64,000 nucleotides of DNA from a virus (IMGVR_UViG_3300031857_000015:62001-126000); one strand, 5' to 3'. Positions 5,240 to 41,718 are shown, numbered from the stretch's first letter. The notes: a model not told the origin generated them from the letters alone. Translations and numbers: made by a program.

Positions 5240-8200
5240 TTACGTATTATCTTCCACAATATGAACCGGGGTGTCCACCTCTATTTCGCCGCGCCGGTAC
5301 GCCTGCATGGCATCCTGCTTGCTGCGAAACACGCGTGGTTTAGCTTTTTTACTGATTCGACTGGACGCTAAGTATAACCCAGTCTGGTAGTCTTTGTTTG
5401 GGACGTAGTGCGCCTTGAACGTCGAAGCTGCAAACAGGTTCTTACTCGGCAGCATCTTTTCCACGGCTTCTTTAGCGGCGTCTTCGGTACTTGGGACGTG
5501 ATACTGCATCGCGTCGCCGTCGAAGTCAGCGCCGAACCCCTTCGTGATTACGGGGTTTACTTCCATGACTTTGTTCTTAGTTAACTTGGGGTAAAACGCC
5601 ATCATGCCGTAACGGTGAAGCACGGGCGCGCGGTTAATAACAATAGGCCGCGACGACATCTGCCGATCTAGCTCGGCGCCAGCTTCTTTCGTCTTGTCTT
5701 CCACGGCCTGCATCGCCTGCATGCGCGGAAGACCCCTGCGAACAAGACCGCGCACAACGAACGGCTTGTAAATATCCCACGCTTTCTCTTCCGGCAACGC
5801 AACCTCGTCCATGTCGAGATCGGGATTCGGTGTAATGACCGCGCGCCCCACGAGGTCGACCGTGGAGCTAAGAAGCTTACGCTGCACGGTGCCGTACTTT
5901 GGCGAGTTACCGAACACGTGCCGCAGAAAACCTTTCACATTGCGCTCAACGTTTTTCGGCTGCTGCGGCTCACCCAGTCCAGTGACAGCCTTCATCGAGT
6001 CATACACGCTCAGGCGTTCGTCGCCGTAATCGGCCAGCGCGCCAGACGCCTCTTTCAGTGTGTCGTTCGCATCAAGCAGTTCTTTGTACAGATAGTTTGC
6101 GTCAGCGACGAGCGGCAGCTTCTTACTGCCCATCGTGCTCACGGGGCGGAAGAGTGGCGGCAAGACGGGGACTTTACTAATCATCCAGTCTTTGGGGTGC
6201 ACGCCGGTTGTTTCCGCGCTCTTTAAGAACCCCAACCGGCGCACGGCAGCGTCGCGAAGCGTCTTGCGCCCGGATTTAATATCTAAACGCGCCTGCTCGA
6301 TAGCCTTTGGTAGGTTAATTCGTTCAAGCGCGGCCTTGATCGCCGTGGGCCCTGTTTTGTCGCCCAGCTGTTCGCGACCAGCCAGCACGCCGCGGAACTG
6401 CTTTTCCGTCATCCCCAGTACGCGTCGAATCGGGTCTTCCATGACCGGATTCGGCAGCGGCTCGTGCAGCGTGATCTTGCTCCACCTGTTACCGCCGTGG
6501 CCGCCCGTCAAAGCCTCATCAAATAAACCGCCGGCAATAGGCTTGAGGCGCCCCTTCCAGTCAACGGTCTCAGAGCTTTTCAATTCACGCGGACCGGCCA
6601 GCTCGTCGATGTCTTTGTCGGTCATGGCCATGAGGTTCGACCGCGTGCCTTTGCGCACAACGTTAATACCAGACGCCCTAAGCTGCCCGACGAACTTCTC
6701 GTATACGTGTGGCACCTTGGGTAGCGGCGGAGTGTAGCCGGCCATGAACTGCGACCAGTATTCGGGATTTGCTTGGCCGCGCACCATCTTGGCGTCGCGA
6801 ATAACCTTACCGGCGCCGTGCGAAAGCAGCGCGCCAAGATCCAGCATGCCGACGCGCTTGGCGCCTTCGCTGCCGCCCTTCGCCGGAGTGCCTTCGGCTG
6901 TATATGCACCCATCGACCGGCCCTGCGCTTTTGATTCGCTGGTATGGTGCAGCTTCATGAAAAACCGGCTGCCGGTCAGCACACCGCCGATTTTCCGCCC
7001 GGTTTCTGCGTCGATGACGTCTTCGGTATCGGACAGCCCGTGCTTTGCCAGTTCTTTCTGCGCAAACTCAATGAGGTCGTTTTTGTTATCAAAGTCCTTG
7101 AGCTTGTACGGCGAGCCGGTCTTTGCTGCGACCTTGCCTAGTGCGGCTTCAATCACCTGCGCCGGGTTAATACGGCTGATCAGACCCAGCGGCGAGACGA
7201 GCACTTCAAAAGGATTGCCGTCGCGGTCTTTGGGCATCTGGTCGTCAGGTACGATCTCTGCGACGACGCCCTTGTCGCCAAAGCGCCCGGTGAGCTTGTC
7301 GCCAACGTCCATGGGCGCTTGGTTTTTAACGACAACGCTCACACCCTTCTTGGTGTGCATAACGTCGGTCACGATACCCGGCGCATGATGCTCCCACGTG
7401 ATTGTGTCGTTTGTAAAGTTACCAGCACGCCCACGATGCACTTTGCCGTACACCGTGTCTTTCTTTTTGGCCACGAGCACGAGCGGGTCACCAAACTTGA
7501 CCTCAGTACCTTTTTTAATCGCGCCGTCGTCGTCAAAGTTGTCAAGATACTTTTTGTCGTACTCAGTCGGGAACAAACTCACGAACGCCTTCTTGCCAAC
7601 GTGAGTGTTGTCGTCCCACTCGGCTTCGTGCTGATACATGTGCTCAGACGTTAGCCGCTTGGATGCGGATTCAGAGATAACTACCGCATCTTCGTAGTTC
7701 TTGCCGCGGAACGGCAGATAGGCTGTACGCAGATTCAAGCCGAGCGCTGCGCTGCCGTTTTGATCTGTAAAGTTCGACCGGGCGAGCAGTTGTCCGGGCT
7801 CTACCGTGTCGCCGGGCTTCACAATCGGCGTCTGGTGTAAGAACGTCTTACGGTTGTACGGCATTTCGTTATACAAATCGATCGTCTTCTTATTACCATC
7901 TTTGTCGCGCAGTACGATGCCGTCAGGTGTGACATCGACGACTTGCGCGCGTTCGGTAGCCCGGGTGGCGCCAAGCTTTTCGCCCATCTCGTCTTCGTGC
8001 GACATGCTCTCGTCATCGGCCTTGGCGGATTGCAGCAACGGCGCCTCGGCGTTTACTAGCGGGAGCGCTTGCGTAAACATACGGCTACCCATGATCACGC
8101 GGTGGCCTTTGATCATGGACTTAATCGGCACCATGTTGGATAACGTCGAAAACGTTGAATCCATGTTCGGCAGGCTGAACTGCGCCTCTTTACGCGGAAC

Positions 8201-9643
8201 ATACTTGAGCTTGCCGTTGACGAGCGCTGCCACCACGGGAAGTCCGTTATCTTCTTCGCCGGGAAACACGAGCGGCGTATCGGCCAGCTCTTGCGGCGTC
8301 TTGTACACCTTATCGCCGGTTTTCATATCAACAACCGGCGTATACACCTTGCCGTCGGAGCCCTTCATAGCGCCGCGGGCAAAGCGCATGTCAACACCCA
8401 CCTTGCCGGATTCTGGCGTGCGAAGATAGTCGATAAACCCAAGGTGGCTGGGCTGCACAGAACGTGACTCGGCAGGCACGGCGTCCAGCGAGCCAATGCC
8501 GCCTTCGCCCATACGGGTCACACGCGTCTGGTGGTCAAAGATCTCCGCAGGATTAATTTCTTCTAAACTCGACCCCAGACCGCTGCCAATAAGCGCAGCT
8601 GAGATTGCCTTGTCGAATACGCCCGACGGAATGTGATCAATTGACTTCTTCGCCGTAGCTTTCCAGAGCAGCTTGTTAAGCGATTGGCGGTCTTTGGTAA
8701 AACGCTCGGCAATGAGGTCCTCCGGGCCGACGACGGACTGATACACCATGTTGTCTCGGTCGTCGCTCTCGGCCTCGCGGCGATTCACTGCGATTAATTT
8801 CTTAGTGATCGCCAGAATCGTCTCCGGCGTCATGTTCTTGTATTCAGAACCCAGTGTGCGCCGGGTGACTTCCGGGTCGAGTTCGGTCTTGGCAAACTCG
8901 GCCGCGATCGCCTGCGCTTTGGCAATAGCGTCTGCGCCGGCAACTGGTTTGTTTACAAGGCGGGCGTAGATCTTGTCCATCGTGCCAGCATCGCCCTTCT
9001 CCATGTTGACGGCGGTGATCTCATTGCCCCACGCTTTGCGGATGTCCTGATCTGACACGCCCATGGACTTGAGCAGCGGCATGAGCGGGATCTGCGCCTG
9101 ACCAATGCTGATTTTGAACACGCCGGTTTTGGGGTCGAGGAAGTACCGGTGCGAACGGCCCTTACCCGGTAGCGTGTTTACGTGCGCCTCAATCTCGCCG
9201 TTGTCTTTCTCGCGGGTAAACACGCCGGGGCGCAACCGCATCTGGTGCGCAAGGGTGTACTCGACGCCGCCGTTAACGAACGTGCCCGAGTCGGTGAGAT
9301 ACGGCACGTGGGCGATCGTGGCGCGGCGCTGGCCGACAGGCTGCCCGGTTTTGTTATCTGTAAGCGTCCACGTACCTTGCAGCCGGCGGGCAAGTGTCCC
9401 TCTGGAAAGGACAGCTTTCTTCTGATCTGACCTTGTGAAGCGCTCAGGTCCCGAATACCCGACGTCTTGCAGCTGCAACGTATACAGGTCATTCTGCAGC
9501 GGCTTGAGCCCCTGCGCGCTCGTAAGCGCCTGATTAAAAATGTTATCCCGCATCACGCCAACGTCGCCGAACGTGCGCATCGTGGGCGCGACCGGCGCGG
9601 GTGTCATCGGCGATTTTAAGTCGGGCAGTTCAGGGGTCGGCAT
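5240..9643 (-). CDS. RNA polymerase β subunit fused to β' N-terminal half
   Basis: A 1467-aa fusion. The first roughly 1130 residues are β-like: near residue 778 is GDKLTGRFGDKGVVAEI, the β active-site Lys region, followed by FEVLVSPLGLISRINPAQ, matching the β clamp segment. From VPVLPPLFRP (about residue 1158) the chain is β': LVGRAVITPNPDLD, the RPIVINRAPVLHRYG motif, and the metal-binding GADFDGDAMQYH (about 1371-1382). It stops about 90 residues later, and the rest of β' is encoded at 2380-4260. The N-terminal zinc-binding domain of β' is absent. β-β' fusions are known in Helicobacter, and split subunits in phiKZ-type phages. The combination of β fused to β' N-half with a separate β' C-half is unusual. 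Confidence 0.95.
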   Translation of the reverse strand: MPTPELPDLKSPMTPAPVAPTMRTFGDVGVMRDNIFNQALTSAQGLKPLQNDLYTLQLQDVGYSGPERFTRSDQKKAVLSRGTLARRLQGTWTLTDNKTGQPVGQRRATIAHVPYLTDSGTFVNGGVEYTLAHQMRLRPGVFTREKDNGEIEAHVNTLPGKGRSHRYFLDPKTGVFKISIGQAQIPLMPLLKSMGVSDQDIRKAWGNEITAVNMEKGDAGTMDKIYARLVNKPVAGADAIAKAQAIAAEFAKTELDPEVTRRTLGSEYKNMTPETILAITKKLIAVNRREAESDDRDNMVYQSVVGPEDLIAERFTKDRQSLNKLLWKATAKKSIDHIPSGVFDKAISAALIGSGLGSSLEEINPAEIFDHQTRVTRMGEGGIGSLDAVPAESRSVQPSHLGFIDYLRTPESGKVGVDMRFARGAMKGSDGKVYTPVVDMKTGDKVYKTPQELADTPLVFPGEEDNGLPVVAALVNGKLKYVPRKEAQFSLPNMDSTFSTLSNMVPIKSMIKGHRVIMGSRMFTQALPLVNAEAPLLQSAKADDESMSHEDEMGEKLGATRATERAQVVDVTPDGIVLRDKDGNKKTIDLYNEMPYNRKTFLHQTPIVKPGDTVEPGQLLARSNFTDQNGSAALGLNLRTAYLPFRGKNYEDAVVISESASKRLTSEHMYQHEAEWDDNTHVGKKAFVSLFPTEYDKKYLDNFDDDGAIKKGTEVKFGDPLVLVAKKKDTVYGKVHRGRAGNFTNDTITWEHHAPGIVTDVMHTKKGVSVVVKNQAPMDVGDKLTGRFGDKGVVAEIVPDDQMPKDRDGNPFEVLVSPLGLISRINPAQVIEAALGKVAAKTGSPYKLKDFDNKNDLIEFAQKELAKHGLSDTEDVIDAETGRKIGGVLTGSRFFMKLHHTSESKAQGRSMGAYTAEGTPAKGGSEGAKRVGMLDLGALLSHGAGKVIRDAKMVRGQANPEYWSQFMAGYTPPLPKVPHVYEKFVGQLRASGINVVRKGTRSNLMAMTDKDIDELAGPRELKSSETVDWKGRLKPIAGGLFDEALTGGHGGNRWSKITLHEPLPNPVMEDPIRRVLGMTEKQFRGVLAGREQLGDKTGPTAIKAALERINLPKAIEQARLDIKSGRKTLRDAAVRRLGFLKSAETTGVHPKDWMISKVPVLPPLFRPVSTMGSKKLPLVADANYLYKELLDANDTLKEASGALADYGDERLSVYDSMKAVTGLGEPQQPKNVERNVKGFLRHVFGNSPKYGTVQRKLLSSTVDLVGRAVITPNPDLDMDEVALPEEKAWDIYKPFVVRGLVRRGLPRMQAMQAVEDKTKEAGAELDRQMSSRPIVINRAPVLHRYGMMAFYPKLTKNKVMEVNPVITKGFGADFDGDAMQYHVPSTEDAAKEAVEKMLPSKNLFAASTFKAHYVPNKDYQTGLYLASSRISKKAKPRVFRSKQDAMQAYRRGEIEVDTPVHIVEDNT

Positions 9644-10864: not shown

Positions 10865-11224
10865 TTACCTTTCTGGCCGGTAGAGGCGTAACTTCCTGTT
10901 TGTCTTGGCCCGTGCCGCATATGCCTTGTAGGCCGCGGCGAGTTCGCGCGCTTTCAGGTCTTCTTCGTCAACATCGGGCTCCGTCATCTTGCCCGCGACG
11001 TGCCCGGCTAGTCCGCCACCAACTGTGGCCAACATGAGCGGCGTATACGCAATGTTTCCAAGCGCCTGAAACGAGTCAGACATTGTCGGCAGCTGAATAG
11101 CCGCACTTTTTACAAACGCCTCGGCGGCTTTGATGCGCGTCTCAAGCGCGGCGCCTGTTAACTGCTCTTCTGCGCAGCGGCGAAGAAACCCGAGTTTAAA
11201 AGCTTCTTTTTCGTTGACATCCAT
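10865..11224 (-). CDS. Small protein with one hydrophobic stretch and an N-terminal FKLGF motif
   Basis: 119 aa from ATG 11224, chosen because GGAGAG lies 7 nt upstream and the preceding gene ends at 11226. The start MDVNEKEAFKLGFLRRCAEE loosely recalls the N-terminal FG motif of four other proteins here (26297-28255 and neighbours), with Phe-x-x-Gly and a following basic stretch. A hydrophobic segment (TPLMLATVGGGLAGHVAG) lies mid-protein and the C-terminus is basic. Function unknown; a virion component is possible. Confidence 0.75.
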   Translation of the reverse strand: MDVNEKEAFKLGFLRRCAEEQLTGAALETRIKAAEAFVKSAAIQLPTMSDSFQALGNIAYTPLMLATVGGGLAGHVAGKMTEPDVDEEDLKARELAAAYKAYAARAKTNRKLRLYRPER

Positions 11225-26296: not shown

Positions 26297-28255
26297 TTAA
26301 AACGCGCTGCGGCTCCTGCGGTGTTGCGTGGGCTGGCCAGCGCCTTGTGCCGCCTGCGGCGCAAACGGCGAACGGAACTGCATCTGCATCTGCACGGGCG
26401 ACTGCAGCTTCGGCTGGCCGGCACCGTAGTACGCAGCTGCGCCTACGGCCGGAAGCGCTAACGCCGAATGTCGTCCGGCAAGTTGACCCGCCTGACCGAC
26501 AGCGCTTGTTGCCGCACCAGCAGCCGCGCCGGCTGTGCCCATCATATTGCCAACAGCGTTCAACGTCGGCCGGTTTGGCGCGGCGTTAATAAGGCGAGTG
26601 CTTTGCTGCGCCACAGTGTCACCCACAGCCGTAGCCGCTCGACCGGCGCCGCCTACCAGCCCACGCGCACCAGCAGCCAATCCGCGCGCGCCAGCAGCAA
26701 GCCCGCGCGCAGCGAGGCCGCCAAACGCCTGTAACGCGTTTGCGTTTTTGCTGGCGCACGCTGAGCCGGCAGCCGCAGCTAGCATTGGTAGTTTTTTCTT
26801 TACAACCGGTTTTGGCGCCGACTTTGGCAGCGGTTGCTGAGCCTGAAACGGAACAGCAGCTGACTTTGCCGCCGACTGTTGACTGTTTGTGGCGTCCGTC
26901 GGAACCGGACTTGTAGCCTCGCGCTGCTTGTCGTCGATTGGCTTGCTGTTGCCGCGCGAACTCGGTGGGCAGCTCATTTCAGTCTTGCCGCGGGGCGCAC
27001 TGGAGACAGCTTTCTTTTCTTTCTTGTCTGTCTTCTTCTTGCTACCGACCGGGCGGCACGAATCATTGCTGTACGGCTTTTTGCCCGGCACTGGCTCGTA
27101 GCCGGTCCAGCATCGGCCGGCTACCTTCATGCCAAACTCCAGTGCCGAGCCCTGCTTCACACCGGTCAGGCTAGCGTTCTGCAACTGCGGCATGAGCTGT
27201 TCAATGATATTTTTATTGTGGGTCAAGAAGTCGTACATTTGTCGCCCCTGATCGCTAGACATATTAGGATCTCGGCCCATCAACATCGTGGTGCCGAACT
27301 CCGGGCTGAGCTGCCCGAGCGCATTAATTTGATCCATAGGGTTGCCGCCCTTGCCGCCGCCCATCATGCCGTAAAGAGCATTCGCGCCTTGGCCAACCAT
27401 GCGGCGTGGGCCGTCGCCGAACATGCCGGCGCCAGCTGCGCCCAGACCAGCCGCGCCCAAGCCCAGCGCGCCCATCGCTCCGCCCATACCGTAGTTGCCG
27501 CGCCCACCCATGAACGCGCCAGCTAACGCCAGCGGCACACCGGCGCCAATGGCATAGCGCGCTTCGGTCGGCATGCTGTTCCACATGCCCATCAGGCCGT
27601 CATTATTCGGCTGCTTCGCGTTCGCGGGATTTAACGGATGGTTGGGGTCTTGTGCGGCGGCCTCAAACAAATTTGGCACCGCGTTATTTTCGCCGGCTCC
27701 GCCGCCGCCGACCATGCCTGTGGCGCGCCCAGCGCCGTACATCGCGCCGGCGCCTGTAGCCACGTTCAGCGGGTTAAGCTTGTCGCCGACCGGGCTCGTG
27801 CCGAACACTTGCCCAGCCGCAGTCTGGACGGGGCGCACCACGCGGTCGCCGAGCTTGGCGCCGGTTGCCGCAGCAGCTTGGCCCGGCCCGTTCATCGCGT
27901 ACCGCGCCGCGTCATCGGCATAGTTCAGACCATGGCGGACCGCGTCTTGCGAGACTTGGCCGACGCTGCCGACAAATTTTGCGCCCTGCGTCGCCTTGTT
28001 CGCGATTGCTTGCCCGGCGCCGCTGATCCGATTCCCGACCGCGTCGTCCACTTTGTTAAAGCCTTTTGATACCGCCGAGCCAGTATTGGCGACCGTATCT
28101 TTGACCGCTTTACGTGCAGCGACGGGAATCTGCCGCCGCACACCGGCCATGGCGCCCCGGACACTCTTTACCGCGCCGTCGGCCAGTCCGCGAAAATCCA
28201 CCGCGGCTTCTTTGTCTGCGCCGCCAAGTTGTGTACCAAATTCATACGGAGTCAT
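26297..28255 (-). CDS. Large Ala/Gly-rich virion-type protein with N-terminal FG motif
   Basis: 652 aa. It begins MTPYEFGTQLGGADKEA, a motif shared in form with the proteins starting at 28981, 29687 and 32310. Much of the chain is Gly/Ala/Met-rich with Gly-zipper segments (MGALGLGAAGLGAAGAGMF) resembling membrane-active virion proteins. Near residue 380 lies EFGMKVAGRCWTGYEPVPG followed by KKPYSNDSCRP, a Cys-x-Gly-Tyr-Glu-Pro-Val-Pro-Gly module that I have seen in large-virus and phage proteins. A basic patch follows. Probably structural or injected; function unknown. Confidence 0.85.
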   Translation of the reverse strand: MTPYEFGTQLGGADKEAAVDFRGLADGAVKSVRGAMAGVRRQIPVAARKAVKDTVANTGSAVSKGFNKVDDAVGNRISGAGQAIANKATQGAKFVGSVGQVSQDAVRHGLNYADDAARYAMNGPGQAAAATGAKLGDRVVRPVQTAAGQVFGTSPVGDKLNPLNVATGAGAMYGAGRATGMVGGGGAGENNAVPNLFEAAAQDPNHPLNPANAKQPNNDGLMGMWNSMPTEARYAIGAGVPLALAGAFMGGRGNYGMGGAMGALGLGAAGLGAAGAGMFGDGPRRMVGQGANALYGMMGGGKGGNPMDQINALGQLSPEFGTTMLMGRDPNMSSDQGRQMYDFLTHNKNIIEQLMPQLQNASLTGVKQGSALEFGMKVAGRCWTGYEPVPGKKPYSNDSCRPVGSKKKTDKKEKKAVSSAPRGKTEMSCPPSSRGNSKPIDDKQREATSPVPTDATNSQQSAAKSAAVPFQAQQPLPKSAPKPVVKKKLPMLAAAAGSACASKNANALQAFGGLAARGLAAGARGLAAGARGLVGGAGRAATAVGDTVAQQSTRLINAAPNRPTLNAVGNMMGTAGAAAGAATSAVGQAGQLAGRHSALALPAVGAAAYYGAGQPKLQSPVQMQMQFRSPFAPQAAQGAGQPTQHRRSRSAF

Positions 28256-28400
28256 GGGGTCGTTCCTGTTTTGTTATTTCTGGTTGCGGCGCGTAATCGC
28301 ACCGGCCGCCTTCGCAGCAGGTTTCTAAAATAATGTGACAAAAAGGGCAGACTAACTTGCCGCGGATCTCAATCGGCGGGCTTTCGCACTGCGGGCACAT
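28242..28400 (-). CDS. Small zinc-ribbon protein
   Basis: 52 aa. CPQC near the start and CPFC about 16 residues later form a zinc ribbon, followed by ETCCEGGRC. The ATG overlaps the preceding stop (TAATG), and the end runs 14 nt into the next gene, so translation is coupled. Small CxxC/CCEGG proteins of this type are frequent in tailed phages; their role is unknown. Confidence 0.75.
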   Translation of the reverse strand: MCPQCESPPIEIRGKLVCPFCHIILETCCEGGRCDYAPQPEITKQERPHDSV

Positions 28401-28981
28401 TACCACTCCAGCTCCACCGGGCGCTGCGTCTTGTAATTAAAGTCAACGTCAATCGGCGAGCGGAACTTCACGCCGGGAAGCGGAAGCTTCGGCGCCACAG
28501 AAGCCGTACCACCAAGGAGCCCAGCCGCAACCAGCGACGGCACGCCATACGATGTGTCCGCCAGCTGCGATAAGCCGCGGCCACCAGCCTGCAGCGCCTT
28601 GCCGGCAAAATCTGTGACGTGGCCGACACCACGAGTTGCCCGACCAGCAGCCCGGCCGCCAAAGCCCAGCGCCGACATGACGTCGCCGTACATGCCGGTG
28701 TTACCCGCGCCGTGATCGATCACCGTCTTGCCGCCCTTCATGGCTTCGCGGCCGACGCCTTTGGCTAACCCAGCTGCGCCACTCGTGGCCTGCCCGAGCC
28801 CTTCGATCCCGCCGCCAAAGCCGCGCACCAGATGCTTGGCACCCTGATTGATCGTCTTGGCGCCTGTGGCAACCCCGCGGCCAGCTTGCGCCAGCCGAGC
28901 GAAAATCGAACCCATGTTAATGCTCGGGGCTGCAGATTTTTCTTGCTGCCCAACGCTGTAGCCAAACTCAAACGGCGTCAT
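28400..28981 (-). CDS. Gly/Ala-rich virion-type protein with N-terminal FG motif
   Basis: 193 aa from ATG 28981 (AAAGGA 8 nt upstream), which places MTPFEFGYSVGQQEKSA at the N-terminus exactly as in its neighbours. The rest is Gly/Ala-rich with short amphipathic repeats (GLGQATSGAAGLAKG). No enzymatic motif. Probably part of the same virion protein group. Confidence 0.8.
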   Translation of the reverse strand: MTPFEFGYSVGQQEKSAAPSINMGSIFARLAQAGRGVATGAKTINQGAKHLVRGFGGGIEGLGQATSGAAGLAKGVGREAMKGGKTVIDHGAGNTGMYGDVMSALGFGGRAAGRATRGVGHVTDFAGKALQAGGRGLSQLADTSYGVPSLVAAGLLGGTASVAPKLPLPGVKFRSPIDVDFNYKTQRPVELEW

Positions 28982-29012
28982 GTGTCGGTCCTTTGTTATG
29001 AGAACGAGTGTC

Positions 29013-29687
29013 TTACCACTTGAAAGGTCGCGGTGGTCGTGGCATAGTCGGCGCCGGAACAGGGGGCGCATTAAGCTGCTGCGCACTAATTTGCGCCGTG
29101 CTGTTTTCCAGCGGTTGCGAGCCCATCGTCATGCGCACGGTGTTAATCGGATTGCGAATCATGGCGTTCATGGTCGACTTCACCGGATTCATCGGCAGCG
29201 ACATCGGGCCCACAGACTTCCAGCTGGTCTGCGCCAACGGAATATGCCTCTGAATACCCTGCGACATCGCCGTATTAATGCCGGTAGCCGTGCGATTCGC
29301 GTTCACCATGCCGCGACTGAGCGATGCTGCGCCGTCCGCAGCGGCACCTAAGCCTTTGCCCACGGTCTGCGCCACGCGTCCGCCGCCAGCTAGTGCGCGG
29401 CTTCCACGCAGCAGGCCCTTAGCAGCGCCGCTGACAAGCCCAGCGCCCGGAATGAGACCCAGCGCCATCATGCCCGCAGAACCCAGCGAGCCGAGCACAT
29501 TGCCCTGACTGACGTTGTGATACAGGTCTTGGCCGGCTTGAATCGAGCTTAAGCCCGGCGTGAAGTAACCGAGCGTGCGGGCCATTGTGTTTTCTTGATG
29601 CAGCGGATTAAACCCGCCCCAGCTACCGCCGAGCGCTTGCTTCTCCAGCCGCGCGCCGACACTGTAGCCAAACTCGTACGGGCGCAT
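29013..29687 (-). CDS. Gly/Ala-rich virion-type protein with N-terminal FG motif
   Basis: 224 aa starting MRPYEFGYSVGARLEKQA, with GGAG 8 nt before the ATG. A Gly-rich hydrophobic central region (LGSLGSAGMMALGLIPGAG) and a polar Pro-rich C-terminus follow. The motif and composition tie it to the 26297-28255, 28400-28981 and 31462-32310 proteins. Function unknown. Confidence 0.8.
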   Translation of the reverse strand: MRPYEFGYSVGARLEKQALGGSWGGFNPLHQENTMARTLGYFTPGLSSIQAGQDLYHNVSQGNVLGSLGSAGMMALGLIPGAGLVSGAAKGLLRGSRALAGGGRVAQTVGKGLGAAADGAASLSRGMVNANRTATGINTAMSQGIQRHIPLAQTSWKSVGPMSLPMNPVKSTMNAMIRNPINTVRMTMGSQPLENSTAQISAQQLNAPPVPAPTMPRPPRPFKW

Positions 29688-29718
29688 ATGTAACTCCAGC
29701 AGTTAACAATAGTTTAGT

Positions 29719-30258
29719 TTATTGCTTTGTCGCGCATTCCCGACTGCACCGAAATACCAGCGAGTAACGTGTATCAGCGACCGGGAGGATTTCATGGTTC
29801 CAATTGTAGCGAATTTCGTCGCGCAGTTGTACAAGACTTCGCGGCGGCAACTCGACGGAAAACGCGCGCTTCTGCAGCGTAAACACCATGGTGGCCGGCG
29901 TAAGTAAGCTTAATACCGTGATTACCGCGCCGCCTTCGGGCAGATCCACGTGAGGTTTGATCACCTGTTTTTCCAGATATTGATTCAACGTAATAGAGTC
30001 TGGGCGGTGGTCTACGAGGTTTTGCGCCACAAGCCGGTCCAGCAAAAACTGAAAATGTTCTGGAATTGTGTCCGACAAAATATTATTGGGATACGGCACG
30101 GATGATCCCCAGCGCTGAATCACATTTCGGGTCTTCACGTGCCGGCGGGTGTGCCCCGTGGGAATACCGGCCTCGATGTGCGCGAGTAGTGTCTGCTCTT
30201 CCGCGGGCGACAAAAACTCGTCTTGTAGTGCAAGTGTGCTGACATCGAGTGGAATCAT
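29719..30258 (-). CDS. AlkB-like 2-oxoglutarate/Fe(II) dioxygenase
   Basis: 179 aa. The double-stranded β-helix ligands are visible: His103-x-Asp105 (KPHVDLP), His155 (YNWNHEI) and the 2-oxoglutarate Arg164 with a second Arg170 (TRYSLVFR). ITLNQYLEKQVIKPH resembles AlkB's nucleotide-binding strand region. AlkB enzymes remove alkyl groups from DNA or RNA bases. It may protect phage DNA or act on RNA; no partner gene suggests which. Confidence 0.88.
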   Translation of the reverse strand: MIPLDVSTLALQDEFLSPAEEQTLLAHIEAGIPTGHTRRHVKTRNVIQRWGSSVPYPNNILSDTIPEHFQFLLDRLVAQNLVDHRPDSITLNQYLEKQVIKPHVDLPEGGAVITVLSLLTPATMVFTLQKRAFSVELPPRSLVQLRDEIRYNWNHEILPVADTRYSLVFRCSRECATKQ

Positions 30259-30273
30259 GTCGGGCTCTGCCGT

Positions 30274-30648
30274 TTATTTATTCGGCTTGCGCGGGCACCG
30301 ACGATGGGTGCGCATTTCCCGGCGAAACGCGGCCGCCATTTTGCGCACATCGCGGTTGTAGCAATGATAATTAAAGAAGTGCCCAAACATGAAATGGCAC
30401 GATGTTTCACAGAGCGTGATGAGATTGCTTTCGGTGAGTTCCAGATCTGGTGCGACGCTGACGGGAAAAATATGATGCACAGCGAGATTCTTCGTCCGGC
30501 CGCAGACTTCACAGGCCGGATGCTTGGCTAAGTGTTCTGCCCGGACTCGTCGCCACTCTCCTGCGCGCTGTCGCTGGTCGAGGATGTATCTGGGGCGCAG
30601 CCAGAGCGGCAGCCAACTGACGACGAGGGCGCACAGTTTTGTAAACAT
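30274..30648 (-). CDS. HNH endonuclease
   Basis: 124 aa. After a short hydrophobic start (LCALVVSWLPLWL) comes ACEVCGRTKNLAVHHIFPV, the HNH core with a CxxC zinc knuckle, then ESNLITLCETSCHFMFGH supplying the Asn, a second zinc pair and the last His. The start is uncertain: the listed ATG overlaps the Cys-rich gene by 121 nt, and a later start could remove the hydrophobic part. Possibly a free-standing mobile or packaging-associated nuclease. Confidence 0.8.
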   Translation of the reverse strand: MFTKLCALVVSWLPLWLRPRYILDQRQRAGEWRRVRAEHLAKHPACEVCGRTKNLAVHHIFPVSVAPDLELTESNLITLCETSCHFMFGHFFNYHCYNRDVRKMAAAFRREMRTHRRCPRKPNK

Positions 30649-30770
30649 GGCCGGACTTTCGTGCTGCCGCGAACATACGGCGGGTCATACGGACAGTTTT
30701 TACATTTTTTGCCGCAACACTTTTGCTGCGCCAGTAGGACGTCACGGGACAAAGGCGGATACTTACTCAC
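30528..30770 (-). CDS. Small Cys-rich protein (DUF5522-like motif)
   Basis: 80 aa. The N-terminal half MSKYPPLSRDVLLAQQ then KCCGKKCKNCPYDPPY is a known small phage/bacterial motif with four cysteines, like the CCGxxCxxCPY signature of DUF5522. The C-terminal half is Ser/Asp-rich and probably disordered. It overlaps the membrane gene upstream by 8 nt and the HNH frame by 121 nt. Likely metal-binding. Confidence 0.7.
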   Translation of the reverse strand: MSKYPPLSRDVLLAQQKCCGKKCKNCPYDPPYVRGSTKVRPCLQNCAPSSSVGCRSGCAPDTSSTSDSAQESGDESGQNT

Positions 30771-31020
30771 ACTCGTTGTACTTCACGACTAAATACGTCC
30801 CGATAAAGGCGCCAATAGCCAGCGGGACCACATATAGTGGATTCTTGGAGTACGAGATCACGCCATACGCGCCCAAGCTATACAAGAACGAACTCACGAT
30901 CGCGGCGTTGATCGGCTGGCGCTTGCTGACGCAGATCACATACATGGCGTACAAGATATCAATGACCACATAGGTCACGAAGATGACGCCGGCCGTGCCC
31001 CAATGAAAGTCCTGCCACAT
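30763..31020 (-). CDS. Small three-span membrane protein
   Basis: 85 aa, mostly hydrophobic, with spans around residues 10-30, 38-56 and 60-78 (PLYVVPLAIGAFIGTYLVV). It is of a type often seen in tailed phages next to small accessory genes. Function unknown. Confidence 0.75.
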   Translation of the reverse strand: MWQDFHWGTAGVIFVTYVVIDILYAMYVICVSKRQPINAAIVSSFLYSLGAYGVISYSKNPLYVVPLAIGAFIGTYLVVKYNECE

Positions 31021-31028
31021 GGGTCACC

Positions 31029-31382
31029 TCACAGAACCGTCGAGGCTTGCGTAAACTTCTTCTCGTAATGCGAATAGATCTCCGCAAACGCCACACCCCA
31101 CGCGGCGTCATGGGCGAGCTTGTTAAACGCGGCATCGTCCACTGCTGTATCCAGACGGTGGTTCCACGCCCGCGCATGCGCCCACTCGTGGATCAAGACG
31201 TCCATGGCGCGCGATTCATCCAGACTCTTGTCAATCTGAATGTGGAACTTCTTGCCCTGTTTCCAGCAGCGGCCCTCTAATTTAGATAGCTTTACCCGGC
31301 GTACGCTCACGGGAAAAGCCGCAGGACACTCGTCTTTGAGCATCCGCAGGAGGGCTTGGTAATACTTAAAACGAGCCGCCAT
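31029..31382 (-). CDS. SprT-like HExxH metal-dependent protein
   Basis: 117 aa from ATG 31382 (AGGAGG 7 nt upstream). VLIHEWAHARAW supplies an HExxH zinc site, and a later helix (FAEIYSHYEKKF) could supply the third ligand. Size and position of the motif resemble SprT/WLM-type minimal metallopeptidases. Target unknown. Confidence 0.75.
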   Translation of the reverse strand: MAARFKYYQALLRMLKDECPAAFPVSVRRVKLSKLEGRCWKQGKKFHIQIDKSLDESRAMDVLIHEWAHARAWNHRLDTAVDDAAFNKLAHDAAWGVAFAEIYSHYEKKFTQASTVL

Positions 31383-31461
31383 GCTCCGTCCTCCTGAAGG
31401 GCGTCCTTGCCACAACAGGGTGATTATACTTGAGCTGGCGGAGTTTGGCGGCAGTGATTTA

Positions 31462-32310
31462 TTAAGCGTTTTTCTGCAGCTGCGCTAACACGGCCGCGGC
31501 GCTTTTCTTAACTTCCTCGTCACCCGAATCTTCCGACTTTTCCTCGGACTTCTCTTCTTTTTCTTCGCTTTCGGGCGCTTCTTTCTTTTTGCTAAAGCTC
31601 CGCCCGATGTCGGCGCCGATGTTGCCGCCCATGTGAGCGCCAGCGCCAAGACCAGCAGCACCGCCAGCCAGTAAGCCCAATCCAGCGCCCGGGCCGCCAC
31701 CGAGAGCACCACCGCCCAGCGCGCCCAGAATCCCGCCGCCTGCGCCGCCAGCAAGGCCGCCTAAACCACCGCCGGTCAGGCCGCCGAGCACCGACAGCAC
31801 AGACGCTTCTTTCTTTTCCCACGACGGCGCACCAAGAGCCGATTCAGTAAGCGCGCCGCCGCCGAGCCCGCCACCGATCAGGCCGGCAACACCGCCGCGC
31901 GTCGTAGCATTACGCAGCATGGCATCTGTATACGGCGATATGTGCCCACTACCGCGAATCGGAACTTTTTTGCCGCTGCGCATCATGGTTCGACCGCCGC
32001 GCGCAAGAAACCGTTTCATCGCCTCAACGAGCTGCGCCTTATTCGGTCCGAACAGCGCTTTGCCCGCACGAGGATTTAACAGTCCCAGCGCCGCAGCACC
32101 AACAGCGCCCAGCGCCCCGCCAACGCCCATGCCGGCGCTGGTACCCGCACCGATCGTGGCGCCACGGCCGGCGCCTTCCATGCGATGACCAGACGGCGAC
32201 GTAATCGCGCCAAAGCCTGCGCCAAGCCCGGCTGTGGCAGGAAGTGTAACAAACGCTTTCTTCGCTTGCTGACCGATTTGCATACCGAATTGTGCGGGCG
32301 TAACACTCAT
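31462..32310 (-). CDS. Gly/Ala-rich virion-type protein with N-terminal FG motif
   Basis: 282 aa from ATG 32310 (AGGTGA 6 nt upstream), giving MSVTPAQFGMQIGQQAKKA at the N-terminus, a variant of the motif at 28255, 28981 and 29687. The frame extends up to 32436 but then the motif would be internal. The body is Gly-zipper-rich (GGLGGLAGGAGGGILGALGG) and the C-terminus is acidic with KEE/SEE repeats. Likely a virion or ejected membrane-active protein; not an enzyme by sequence. Confidence 0.8.
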   Translation of the reverse strand: MSVTPAQFGMQIGQQAKKAFVTLPATAGLGAGFGAITSPSGHRMEGAGRGATIGAGTSAGMGVGGALGAVGAAALGLLNPRAGKALFGPNKAQLVEAMKRFLARGGRTMMRSGKKVPIRGSGHISPYTDAMLRNATTRGGVAGLIGGGLGGGALTESALGAPSWEKKEASVLSVLGGLTGGGLGGLAGGAGGGILGALGGGALGGGPGAGLGLLAGGAAGLGAGAHMGGNIGADIGRSFSKKKEAPESEEKEEKSEEKSEDSGDEEVKKSAAAVLAQLQKNA

Positions 32311-32413: not shown

Positions 32414-34546
32414 TTATTTGGCGGAATCGGCGGCATCGTCTTCGTCCAGAATGCTTTTGCTGGGCTGGGGCTTGGCGTCTGGATATTTTAACAGCCGGCG
32501 CTTCTTCTTTGAAAGCGGTCGTTTCGGTGTGCTGGTGGTGAGCGTGAGCGGCTGAAACACGCTGCTTTTTTCCTGCGGCGCTTCTTTTGTTAACTCTCCG
32601 CGCCGGCGCTTGAGATACTTCTGTAACTCCTGCTCCTGATACGCTTCCAGCATGGTCTTTACTCTGTCCGACTTGGCCGGCGAGACTAACTTTGTCGGAT
32701 CAATCGCCCAGTTGCGCAGCGCCCAGCCACGACGAGGTGTCGGTTTGGCCATGAACGGCCCACCATGACGCGCCTTGAAGCTCGCCCAGCGCTTGATCTG
32801 GCGCGTGTCTTCCTCGGGAATTCTGCGGCCAGAGTTATAGTTCTGATACCACTCCAGCCAGCCCTTTGGGTCATGCTCAGTCACCCATTCAGGCTTCCAT
32901 TCGCCCAAGCTGGCTAATCTCGGCCCTTCTTTCTCATAAAGCGATTTATACACACCCATGCGATGCAGCTGGCCGGGCGTAAAGTCAGGCTGGAACTCAG
33001 GAAGCTCCGCGCTCTGCTTCTCTTGCTCGCGCTGCTTGCGGTATTTATCTCCCTCGTCTTTGAGTATCTTGCGGAAGATCTCATTGAGCTGCTCTTTCTC
33101 AGCGGTGAGGTGTTCGAGCACTTCGTCACCTGTACGCTCGCGCTTGTACCCCATGAGCTTGCCCAAGAAGCTCGGGTCTTGGCTGGCGCTTAGATATCTT
33201 TGGACTTGGACGTTCTTGAGTTCTTCAGGGAGATCTCTGTGCGAGTCAAAACGTAAGCCACGGCCACGAGCTTGCTGGCTGCGCGACTCATGCCAGTGCG
33301 GATCTAAGAGCTGGATGAGACTGGTGCCCTTAGTCGACAAGCCCTCAGCGCCAGCAGGGCCAATTAAGAGCGCGCGCAGCTTGCCTGTGTTGTATGCGTC
33401 CACAGCGGCTTGGCGCGCCTTTGAGCTGACGCCGCCATGGAAAAACGCATGCGGGATCTTGGCTTTCTCTAGGCCAGCCGCGTAGGGCGCCAAGCCAGAG
33501 TCAATAAAGTTGGAGTAGATAATCGCCTTCTTGCGCTTGTCTTCGCCCAGTGTTTTCTGCAGGTTCTGGAACGCTGTCTGGAGCTTGGCGCTCTGCTGAA
33601 AAGCTTTGCCGGGATCTTTGTCAGCACGGAACGGCTGTGTACTGAGACTTACTTGGCGCAGGCCCGTCAAGAAGCTATTTAACTTGGCCAGCTCGTCTTT
33701 ACTTAGCGGAAACTCTTGGTCGAGCTTCCAGAGAAATCCCGGCGGAATCTTCGTGCGGATAGCCTTCTGAATCTTGTCCTGCGCTGGCGATAACGGCACA
33801 CGCACGACTTCTTCTTTGACGTCGACGCCTTCAGGAGTCTTGCTGGGCTGATAGTCAACTTTGCCCTGCAGTAACTGGCGTAGCTCTTGCTCGTTCTTGA
33901 CGACTGGTTTGACGCCGGGCTTCACGCCACGCAGCCAGCCAAACAAACCCGGGCGCACAGTCTTGTAATCTATGTAGCGCTTTTCAAACTCTTCGGGCGT
34001 GATCTGTTTATTGTTCAGCATCGACAACAAGTTCGCCAAGTCCGTGGGCGAGTTTGTGATCGGCGAGCCTGTGAGCAGCATCAGCCGTTTGGCTTGGGCA
34101 GCAGCTTCAGCAGCGCCTGTCGAGCTTGCGCTGCCGGGATTCCGTAATCTATGCGCCTCGTCCATGATGAGTGTCTTAGGCGGCGTCTGGAACTTCTTGC
34201 CCAGCGCCAGCCCCGTGTAGCTCATGATCTCAGGATTCGAGTTGCGCGTGAACTTCTTGACTTCTTTGTCGAAGTTTCCCCTGAGACTAGCCGGGACCAC
34301 CACGCCATACTCTTCGCCGTCTTGTTCTTTGGCAGCTTCGGCGGCAGCGAGCGATGAGAGCGACTTGCCCGACCCTAAGCCGTGATAGACCAGCAATCTG
34401 GGGTCAGGGCCGGCAATGCGATCGGCGATGCGTTGCTGATGCTCTTGCAGCTGGATCTCGGGCAAAAGCTCAGCGATTTTGTGCCACAGCCCAGCCGGCA
34501 ACGCAGATTTTTTCATCGGCTGGTCATCGTCGAGAATGCTGTTCAT
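32414..34546 (-). CDS. SF2 (SNF2-like) helicase with C-terminal GRR/WY domain
   Basis: 710 aa. Walker A HGLGSGKS (55-62), DEAHRLRN (129-136), LTGSPITNSP and a helicase C-terminal domain with QQARGRGLRF (motif VI) define an SF2 ATPase closest in style to SNF2/poxvirus NPH-I-type enzymes. The C-terminal third contains GWLEWYQNYNSGRRIPEEDTR then QIKRW, a module I associate with NCLDV and large-phage proteins. Such ATPases can act in transcription termination or chromatin-like remodelling. With a phage polymerase encoded 28 kb away, a transcription role is plausible but inferred. Confidence 0.9.
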   Translation of the reverse strand: MNSILDDDQPMKKSALPAGLWHKIAELLPEIQLQEHQQRIADRIAGPDPRLLVYHGLGSGKSLSSLAAAEAAKEQDGEEYGVVVPASLRGNFDKEVKKFTRNSNPEIMSYTGLALGKKFQTPPKTLIMDEAHRLRNPGSASSTGAAEAAAQAKRLMLLTGSPITNSPTDLANLLSMLNNKQITPEEFEKRYIDYKTVRPGLFGWLRGVKPGVKPVVKNEQELRQLLQGKVDYQPSKTPEGVDVKEEVVRVPLSPAQDKIQKAIRTKIPPGFLWKLDQEFPLSKDELAKLNSFLTGLRQVSLSTQPFRADKDPGKAFQQSAKLQTAFQNLQKTLGEDKRKKAIIYSNFIDSGLAPYAAGLEKAKIPHAFFHGGVSSKARQAAVDAYNTGKLRALLIGPAGAEGLSTKGTSLIQLLDPHWHESRSQQARGRGLRFDSHRDLPEELKNVQVQRYLSASQDPSFLGKLMGYKRERTGDEVLEHLTAEKEQLNEIFRKILKDEGDKYRKQREQEKQSAELPEFQPDFTPGQLHRMGVYKSLYEKEGPRLASLGEWKPEWVTEHDPKGWLEWYQNYNSGRRIPEEDTRQIKRWASFKARHGGPFMAKPTPRRGWALRNWAIDPTKLVSPAKSDRVKTMLEAYQEQELQKYLKRRRGELTKEAPQEKSSVFQPLTLTTSTPKRPLSKKKRRLLKYPDAKPQPSKSILDEDDAADSAK

Positions 34547-34560
34547 AGCGGACCGGTGAC

Positions 34561-35406
34561 CTATTTTGACGCATTAATATCTAAATCAGCCACGGGATTC
34601 GGTCCCAATGTGGCCTGCGCCGCCAACTCACGCTCGTGCTTCTGAATTTCAGATTCTACCCAATCTTTGTACAAACTCACACGGGTAAACGCGCTGTCGT
34701 CGCCGTACGTGCCGTCTGGTTTCCCGTCGGAGTGCGCTAGAAATGAGTTAATTCCCGCTAATTGATTGCCAATGAACATTCCGCCGCCAGAATCTCCGGG
34801 GGCGATCATGAACTCTAACGGCAGCCGCCCTTCTTTTCTGGGCGAGCACAAAACTGTTGCCAGATGCGCGGACAAAAGCTTGTTGTGTCCCGCCCGGCGT
34901 TGATTATCTGTTTTTGTGGCGCCCGTAATAAAGTTTCCAGTTGAGCCCCAGCCCGCAATCGTCACGGCTTGGCCTATTTCATCTGTGTTGCTGTACAGCG
35001 GCACATAGAAAGCTAGTTTGAAGTCTTCGGCTACGTAGCACAGCGCAATATCGTGCAGCCCAATTTTGTCTGCGTTGTAATCTTTGTGCTGCACTTTGTA
35101 GACAACGCGATGTTTCTTCTCGCCCACATGAATCACGTTGTTATTCGATTCGTTGATGACGTGCGCGGCGGTTAACGCCCAGTGCGGCCGGATGATCACA
35201 GCCGAGGCAAGCTGTTCGTGGTGTTCGTTGCACTTCGTGCAGTCAATGTCGTTGGTGATCCGCACGACAAAGGGAAACTGCTTGCCAAACTCGACATACT
35301 TGGCGTCTGGTGTGCTGGGGTCGATCGTGCCGGCCATCGCTGCGCGCGCGGCCAAGAGAATAATCACGAAGCGTAGCAGGCGGGCAAAGAATTCTTGCGC
35401 GTTCAT
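34561..35406 (-). CDS. Secreted trypsin-like (S1) serine protease
   Basis: 281 aa. A signal peptide (LLRFVIILLAARAAMA) precedes an S1 domain with the full triad: His82 in ALTAAHVI, Asp119 in HDIALCYV, Ser206 in APGDSGGGMF. Cys56 and Cys59 lie in DCTKCNEHH, a possible metal or disulfide pair. Active trypsin-fold proteases are rare in phages; export suggests action in the periplasm or outside the host, or in virion maturation if the leader is a membrane anchor. Confidence 0.92.
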   Translation of the reverse strand: MNAQEFFARLLRFVIILLAARAAMAGTIDPSTPDAKYVEFGKQFPFVVRITNDIDCTKCNEHHEQLASAVIIRPHWALTAAHVINESNNNVIHVGEKKHRVVYKVQHKDYNADKIGLHDIALCYVAEDFKLAFYVPLYSNTDEIGQAVTIAGWGSTGNFITGATKTDNQRRAGHNKLLSAHLATVLCSPRKEGRLPLEFMIAPGDSGGGMFIGNQLAGINSFLAHSDGKPDGTYGDDSAFTRVSLYKDWVESEIQKHERELAAQATLGPNPVADLDINASK

Positions 35407-40485: not shown

Positions 40486-40521
40486 TCACTGAATATGACC
40501 GGAATCGGGCTTTTATTTAGC
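40486..40521 (-). promoter_or_regulatory. 36-bp two-box element, copy 3
   Basis: Minus strand: GCTAAATA, 12 nt, CGGTCATATTCAGTGA. It overlaps the 3' end of the 40513-41718 gene, whose last codons GCT AAA TAA form the upstream box, and lies 65 nt before the coiled-coil gene start. Confidence 0.75.
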
Positions 40522-41718
40522 TATCAGCGGCTGGCTCTGCGTCGCCCGAAAGTTGCGCAACGCGGCGGCTAAAAACTTCTGATAGCTCGCGCCGACGCCG
40601 CCACGATTAGGAAGTCGGGCGCCGGTATTGAGCGCGCCGGACGTAATTCTGGGTGGGACAAAGTTGCTTAAACCGCTCACCTGCAAGCGCGGCAGGAGTT
40701 TTAATAACATGTCTCCGCGGCCCGCTTCTTTCCCAAACGCATACGCGCTGGAGCACTTGCAGTTCCATTTGCGCAGGGATTTGTTAATACGCGAGTCAGG
40801 GTCGGACTTGGTTTTACTACCTGTGTTTACACGCTTCATGCCGCACATCCGCGAGCAGAAAGAGTCCTGACGCTTCTTGGCTTTTCCCTTGGGATTCTTC
40901 TCAGTGACCGGGGCTTTTAAGTTCCCGCCCGTCTCCCGTTCGTAGCTTTTGCGCCCCTTTTCATTGAGCCCGCCTTCAGGATTCTTACCCGAAGAGCGCT
41001 GCCACGCCGGCGTACTGCCCAACTTCTCACCCCCTACCGAATTAGCCGTCCCAAACGCTGCGTTCCCTGTGATATCGCCCGTGGAAGACAGCGCGCCGTA
41101 AGAGTTAATGGGGTTGGCATTGGGAGAAGAGCCGCCGCCAACAGGGGGAAGCTGGCCAGACGGCGCCGGGGAGCCCATGTTCGCCGGTTGGGCGGCGGGA
41201 GCCTGTGGTTGAGCCTGCGGCGCCTGTGGTTGCATCCCCATCGGCAGGGGAGTACCGGCTGCAGGCATGGCGTAGCGCTTTATACCGGCGTTTGCAGGCA
41301 TGCGGGCAGCCTCTCGGGCCTCTAGCTCAGCCCTTTCGTTCTCTATCGCCTGCATTATGGGCTGCGACAAGACAGCAGAAATCTTCGCCATCAGCTTGTT
41401 TACACCATAATTTGGCTTTATTTCTGAATTACACCGTTCGCCCTTGGTCTTCACTACCTTGGGTGGATTTTCACCTGCAACCGTGGGCTTAGCACTGGCC
41501 GGCTGCTCGATATAGACCTCTTTGGTGTCCGCTTTCTTGGATAATTTTCTGTAAATATCGAGGGCTACAGAGTTTACAGCCGATTGTTTATGAGTTGTCT
41601 CTTTATTAGCGTACATAGGGAGTTTCTTTTTGGTTGGATACTCGTGTGCCCAGCGTTTGGCGATGTCTGGATGCGCTGCCCAGAGAAATCTACGCTGTTT
41701 TTCAGACTTAAACGGCAT
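40513..41718 (-). CDS. Virion-type protein with DUF6321-like domain
   Basis: 401 aa. The N-terminus MPFKSEKQRRFLWAAHPDI then AKRWAHEYP is a short motif found at the start of many phage proteins. A Pro/Gln/Ala-rich linker follows. Around residue 255 is KNPEGGLNEKGRKSYERET then GGNLKAPV, the DUF6321 pattern, with a Cys cluster (SFCSRMCGMKR) and NCKCSSA after it. Probably virion-associated. Confidence 0.78.
   Translation of the reverse strand: MPFKSEKQRRFLWAAHPDIAKRWAHEYPTKKKLPMYANKETTHKQSAVNSVALDIYRKLSKKADTKEVYIEQPASAKPTVAGENPPKVVKTKGERCNSEIKPNYGVNKLMAKISAVLSQPIMQAIENERAELEAREAARMPANAGIKRYAMPAAGTPLPMGMQPQAPQAQPQAPAAQPANMGSPAPSGQLPPVGGGSSPNANPINSYGALSSTGDITGNAAFGTANSVGGEKLGSTPAWQRSSGKNPEGGLNEKGRKSYERETGGNLKAPVTEKNPKGKAKKRQDSFCSRMCGMKRVNTGSKTKSDPDSRINKSLRKWNCKCSSAYAFGKEAGRGDMLLKLLPRLQVSGLSNFVPPRITSGALNTGARLPNRGGVGASYQKFLAAALRNFRATQSQPLIAK

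Follow-up and report, generated by a model that had tools for sequence, protein, structure and literature searches.

A putative removable capsid-targeting peptide and a candidate K-x-A maturation site in the head proteins of a phage clade

Why do four otherwise different proteins of an uncultured virus begin with the same short peptide? The genes are encoded on the minus strand, between positions 26297 and 32310 of a stretch of 64,000 nucleotides (the window; bases 62001-126000 of a contig of 198,101 bases), and the initial annotation ascribed a common N-terminal FG motif to their products, here named P1 to P4. We analysed this motif, the genes around it and their relatives in other viral genomes.

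Four proteins with a common N-terminus

All four N-termini are present, with starts at 28255, 28981, 29687 and 32310 (Table 1). They have the form M-x-P-[YF]-E-F-G or TPAQFG, and plausible ribosome-binding sites (CAGGAACG, AAGGACCG, TGGAGTTA, CAGGTGATC) back each of the starts, as had been claimed. The proteins are indeed different otherwise, since the mature parts form four separate families in BLASTP comparisons. The mature parts have predicted pI values of 9.7-11.8, compared with a median of 6.1 for the phage. No matches of P1-P4 above the cut-off were found in Pfam and PHROGs. The AlphaFold model of P2, built with five orthologs, has very low confidence (mean pLDDT 39) and lends no support.

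The genome-wide search proposed in the initial annotation was done on the whole contig, and the strict form of the motif was observed at gene starts only in these four proteins. The chance expectation per genome, from shuffling of 170 gene N-termini, is 0.0 with the strict motif and 0.08 with a loose one. Besides the gene starts, the contig contains two internal FG..KxA copies, one in P1 and one in a DUF6321 protein (40513-41718). The latter protein opens with MPFKSEKQRRFLWAAHPDIAKRW, and its internal YAFGKEAG corresponds to YEFGKQAG in the related contig G007. The protein at 10865-11224, initially described as a looser variant of the motif, belongs to a separate ortholog family with the pattern FK[LMY]GFLxRC[AS]EEGLT; as this is a single family, its motif was rejected as a second tag. 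This protein also bears an N-terminal K-x-A (EKEA).

Table 1. Features discussed in the text. Coordinates are those of the window unless stated otherwise.
Feature	Coordinates	Strand	Description
RNA polymerase beta-type subunit	5240..9643	-	Homolog of Arash gp206
FKLGF protein	10865..11224	-	MDVNEKEAFKLGFLRRCAEEQLT; not an FG tag
P1	26297..28255	-	652 aa, basic, Ala/Gly-rich, predicted pI ~10; N-terminal FG tag
CW cassette in P1	27008..27118	-	GRCWTGYEPVPGKKPYSNDSCRPVGSKKKTDKKEKKA; preceded by KVA, ends in Lys-rich KKA
P1 internal FG..KxA site	27119..27142	-	LEFGMKVA, residues 372-379
P1 FG tag	28205..28255	-	MTPYEFGTQLGGADKEA; putative cleavage after KEA
P2	28400..28981	-	193 aa, basic, Ala/Gly-rich; N-terminal FG tag
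P2 FG tag	28931..28981	-	MTPFEFGYSVGQQEKSA
P3	29013..29687	-	224 aa, basic; N-terminal FG tag
P3 FG tag	29634..29687	-	MRPYEFGYSVGARLEKQA
P4	31462..32310	-	282 aa, Gly-rich; N-terminal TPAQFG tag
P4 FG tag	32254..32310	-	MSVTPAQFGMQIGQQAKKA
SNF2-type helicase	32414..34546	-	Adjoins P4; homolog of Arash gp217
Internal site in DUF6321 protein	40723..40743	-	YAFGKEA, residues 326-332 of 401 aa
Prohead protease	56774-58231 (contig, just outside the window)		Sequence match to Stormageddon gp13 and phage G gp19

The short basic stretch noted behind the motif can be specified as K-x-A, situated 9 or 10 residues past FG. FG-type starts were gathered from this phage and its relatives by protein search, capsid search and DNA patterns applied to the whole collection, and K-x-[AS] follows FG in 40 of the 43 distinct N-termini. 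The spacing is +9 in 24 of them, +10 in 11, and +7 to +13 in the remaining five. The three starts without K-x-[AS] are a likely chance ORF, an N-terminus with K-Q-G (contig L185), and MSITPFQFG with no such site (L031). Some further matches of the FG-pattern scan were discarded as short chance ORFs without K-x-A. In the tag of P2, positions M1, P3, E5, F6, G7, G11, E14, K15 and A17 are invariant in five orthologs.

The mature parts behind the 43 starts fall into many unrelated clusters. At the same time, synonymous codons at the [YF]-E-F-G positions vary freely; thus selection acts on the peptide and not on the DNA, and a DNA-level repeat is ruled out. One might still suppose that the common N-terminus reflects common descent or recombination at gene starts, that is, a duplicated leader that itself has no function. 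The tagged genes are close together, and some have the same neighbours in relatives, which speaks for this. On the other hand, the mature parts are unrelated and diverging, whereas the key residues of the tag persist through many synonymous changes, and we regard such an origin as very improbable.

The FG peptide is probably a removable N-terminal capsid-targeting propeptide that is cut at K-x-A by the prohead protease. The propeptide, of approximately 17-19 residues, would consist of two parts. The first, x-P-[YF]-E-F-G-x-x-[LVI]-G, would bind some component of the growing prohead core, and this binding would carry unrelated, mostly basic Ala/Gly-rich proteins inside the prohead. The second, the K-x-A at the end of the tag, would be the recognition site of a prohead protease of the T4/herpesvirus type. 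The protease would cut after the alanine during head maturation, and the mature basic proteins would stay with the DNA inside the virion. The removal of the tag, suspected in the initial annotation, gains support from the fact that each tag ends in K-x-A, which appears to behave as the prohead-protease site of the clade.

The K-x-A motif in head genes and the prohead protease

Approximately 1,200-1,600 residue-pair/gap patterns were ranked by observed versus expected counts, for each phage alone and on unbiased sets of head genes. In the portal-to-MCP module K-x-A ranks first in this phage (55 seen, 26.9 expected), in Salmonella phage Arash (46 and 21.1) and in Vibrio phage D69 (51 and 22.4). 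Of 22 diverse relatives, 19 have it at rank 1, two at rank 2 and one, L124, at rank 56, counted over the MCP gene and the genes upstream of it; these relatives, with MCP identity down to 34%, share ancestry and do not represent independent events. In the genes downstream of the MCP gene the motif is unenriched or weakly enriched. No enrichment was observed in the tail and RNA polymerase genes of D69, nor in the tail set of this phage, where a different pattern leads. In the head modules of other phages, K-x-A is weak in phage G (rank 3) and absent in Stormageddon (rank 93), and thus it is not claimed beyond the clade.

Two groups of sites are absolutely conserved. In the N-arm of the MCP, K30 and A32 are invariant in all 35 aligned sequences, with Q, E, T, R, D or K at position 31. 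In the prohead protease, K39-x-A41 and K247-x-A249 are invariant in 35 sequences and lie just before and just after the catalytic domain. The latter site falls within residues 235-251, the only stretch of the protease model with pLDDT below 50 (disordered).

The gene product identified as the protease matches Stormageddon gp13, named "capsid maturation protease" in the RefSeq copy. Its structural model (mean pLDDT 82) has T4 gp21 as the best match (5jbl; Z 10.8, rmsd 3.7, 153 residues aligned), followed by herpesvirus proteases (Z ~4); the modelled fold is thus of the T4 gp21/herpesvirus type. His103 and Ser164 are invariant in the 35 protease sequences and are candidates for the catalytic pair. 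No match over the curated cut-off to Pfam Peptidase_S77 (PF03420, the T4 gp21 family) was found in this phage, nor a match to the T4-type MCP (PF07068). In one relative (L065:6058-7515) the protease gene is split into two ORFs of 202 and 278 aa, due to a frameshift or an assembly error.

In T4 the prohead protease recognises the P3-x-P1 site [LI]-x-E, and in SPN3US it recognises A-x-E; both enzymes remove N-terminal propeptides of head proteins and also cleave themselves (PMC9026906, PMC10052503). By analogy, the placement of K-x-A matches the positions where prohead-protease sites should be, and its conservation and enrichment suggest that it is the site of this clade. In Arash, the predicted cuts would include GLVKEA|GAAM in the MCP (gp226) and GLTKQA|AAAE in the protease (gp222). 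No description of K-x-A as a prohead-protease code was found in the literature searched.

Alternatively, K-x-A may be a scaffold- or core-binding motif that is never cut, in which case the mature protein would retain FG-KxA for contacts in assembly. The case for K-x-A rests on sequence statistics and position, and to that extent is compatible with such a role. However, the motif flanks the protease domain on either side, the disordered linker included, and occurs in the N-arm of the MCP, where the T4 and SPN3US proteases cut (PMC9026906, PMC10052503); moreover, it replaces [LIVMF]-x-E before one and the same cassette (see below). Hence we find an uncut contact improbable, if somewhat less so than a duplicated leader.

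The role of FG itself can also be read differently: its main task may be to let the prohead protease dock on or recognise the protein, so that K-x-A is positioned for cutting, with the proteins reaching the core by other means. The tight spacing between FG and K-x-A would fit this, as would the internal FG..KxA copies before the cassette of P1 and in the DUF6321 protein; it is also in its favour that most K-x-A sites elsewhere have no FG. However, FG is overwhelmingly N-terminal, and the K-x-A sites of the MCP and the protease are conserved without it, so FG is not required for cutting. In T4, targeting is done by the N-terminal part of the tag (PMC9026906). This makes docking as the main role rather unlikely, although it is the most serious of the three alternatives, and removable targeting is the reading retained below.

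A Cys-Trp cassette behind two kinds of tags

Directly behind its internal FG..KVA, P1 contains a Cys-Trp (CW) cassette with the consensus (G)RCWxGYEPVPGKxPYSxxSCRPxGSKKKK...KKA. Several different proteins of the clade carry this cassette, always directly behind K-x-A or K-x-S (27 clade-type cases among the matches listed). A Lys-rich tail usually follows and ends in another K-x-A or K-x-S site.

In less strict form the cassette occurs widely among viral contigs (at least 119 stretches), some of them T4-like. Outside the clade [LIVMF]-x-E precedes 40 of 78 cassettes among the matches listed. Often the cassette stands directly behind an N-terminal MKxF..F[IL]xE, which resembles the tag MKTYQEFIAE that opens both IPII and IPIII of T4. 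Four of these contigs encode T4 gp23 together with a protease of the gp21 family, whereas this phage has neither. Approximately half of the non-clade cases among the matches listed have neither type of site, and thus the rule does not hold generally outside the clade.

A direct comparison is provided by two contigs. In L190 the N-terminal FG tag MNPYEFGYVIGEKTA is immediately followed by RCWAGYEPVPG, whereas in L242 MKSFKNFIAE is immediately followed by RCWPGYKPAPG. As the same cassette stands behind either tag, the FG tag replaces the T4-like tag, and K-x-A replaces the T4 cut site. The cassette swap is the strongest comparative argument for the targeting and cleavage model. More tentatively, the clade might combine a K-x-A code with modular head cargo: FG tags would import basic proteins, the CW cassette flanked by K-x-A sites would be excised as a peptide, and cargo modules would move between unrelated head systems, swapping their labels. 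This broader scheme seems to us possible, but clearly less secure than the removable tag itself.

Distribution of the tag and relation to known systems

A search of IMG/VR with the MCP yielded 281 relatives, and hence the phage belongs to a large lineage. The RNA polymerase subunits, SNF2 helicase, tail sheath, portal, prohead protease and MCP have distant homologs in Arash, and several of these proteins also have homologs in D69. Both phages share with this one the K-x-A enrichment in the head module as well as homologous head, tail, helicase and polymerase proteins. The FG tag was not found in positions 1-30000 and 130001-180000 of Arash, nor in 137001-186708 of D69.

With the pattern used, the tag was observed only in close relatives (MCP identity of ~90% and above) and in one contig fragment without the capsid region. 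The initial annotation had named absence of the motif from relatives as an argument against a tag, and this holds in part, as the motif is present in close relatives and was not found, with this pattern, in members whose MCP identity is 79% or below. Its suggestion that the peptide marks internal proteins for packaging or assembly is still the best reading of the evidence, but for a tag confined to close relatives. The L190 ortholog of P4, encoded at the same locus, has no FG and keeps the N-terminal K-x-A. Together with the limited distribution of FG, this suggests that K-x-A is older and more general, FG being a label specific to one subclade; targeting elsewhere in the clade must then work otherwise. 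The P1 ortholog of the same contig (L190:1368-3410) opens with MTPQEFIAVLDQQYSEKTA, having FI instead of FG, and is even closer to the T4 tag.

Some other proteins encoded in the window have homologs in virions. The beta and beta' subunits of the Arash RNA polymerase and the helicase (gp217) were found in particles by mass spectrometry, gp206 being the most detected virion protein (PMC10585845). The multi-subunit, Arash-type RNA polymerase encoded here (2380-4260 and 5240-9643) has no FG tag, although it is packaged in Arash. In this phage the helicase C-terminal domain (RLASLGEWKPEW...), for which Vibrio phage pVa-21 also has a match, forms one protein with the helicase. In L031 (2111-5193) the domain resides on a separate FG-tagged protein, and the helicase C-terminus is Gly-rich instead. 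This arrangement looks like a domain swap linking the helicase and the tagged proteins. Adjoining the helicase, positions 34561-35406 encode a serine protease of the trypsin family (PF00089, E 1e-19) that seems to carry an N-terminal signal peptide; the protease is also found in the distant relative L031. To our knowledge, such proteases are unusual in phages, and this one possibly acts outside the cytoplasm or in the virion.

Capsid-targeting tags have been established experimentally mainly in T4, where the CTS of IPI, IPII and IPIII is, like the FG tag, a short N-terminal peptide on otherwise different basic proteins. Two hallmarks of a CTS are seen here: a short peptide (10-19 aa) common to otherwise unrelated N-termini, and an end at what would be a prohead-protease motif, in all but three of the starts. 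Both tags have an aromatic residue at position 4 with a phenylalanine nearby, both end at a (here putative) prohead-protease site with fixed P3 and P1, and both may precede the CW cassette, the CTS-like one in T4-like phages. In the CTS, residues 4 and 7 are responsible for targeting and residues 8 and 10 for processing (PMC9026906). However, xP[YF]EFGxx[LVI]G...KxA and the T4 sequence are not homologous and show only a loose aromatic-E-F likeness, and the cut site would be K-x-A instead of [LI]-x-E. Proof of packaging and cleavage exists for T4 only, whereas the FG system is known here from sequence. By this analogy, the FG tag seems to work like a CTS without being a member of the CTS sequence family.

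Head maturation in SPN3US/phiKZ, as would be the case in this clade, involves a P3-x-P1 site and N-terminal propeptides. In SPN3US these have 20 residues in gp45 and 24 in gp225, and the protease loses its own terminal part (PMC10052503). The site there is A-x-E, whereas here P3 would be Lys and P1 Ala. We know of no common tag among the SPN3US propeptides.

If the proposed mechanism is correct, the FG peptide would be a second tag, unrelated in sequence to that of T4 and with a cut site of its own, and delivery into the head by a removable label would be a recurrent solution. It would also add a second candidate to the peptides with which proteins may be loaded into capsids. The putative K-x-A rule also predicts testable cleavages in the culturable phages Arash and D69, and internal head proteins of uncultured phages would become predictable from sequence.
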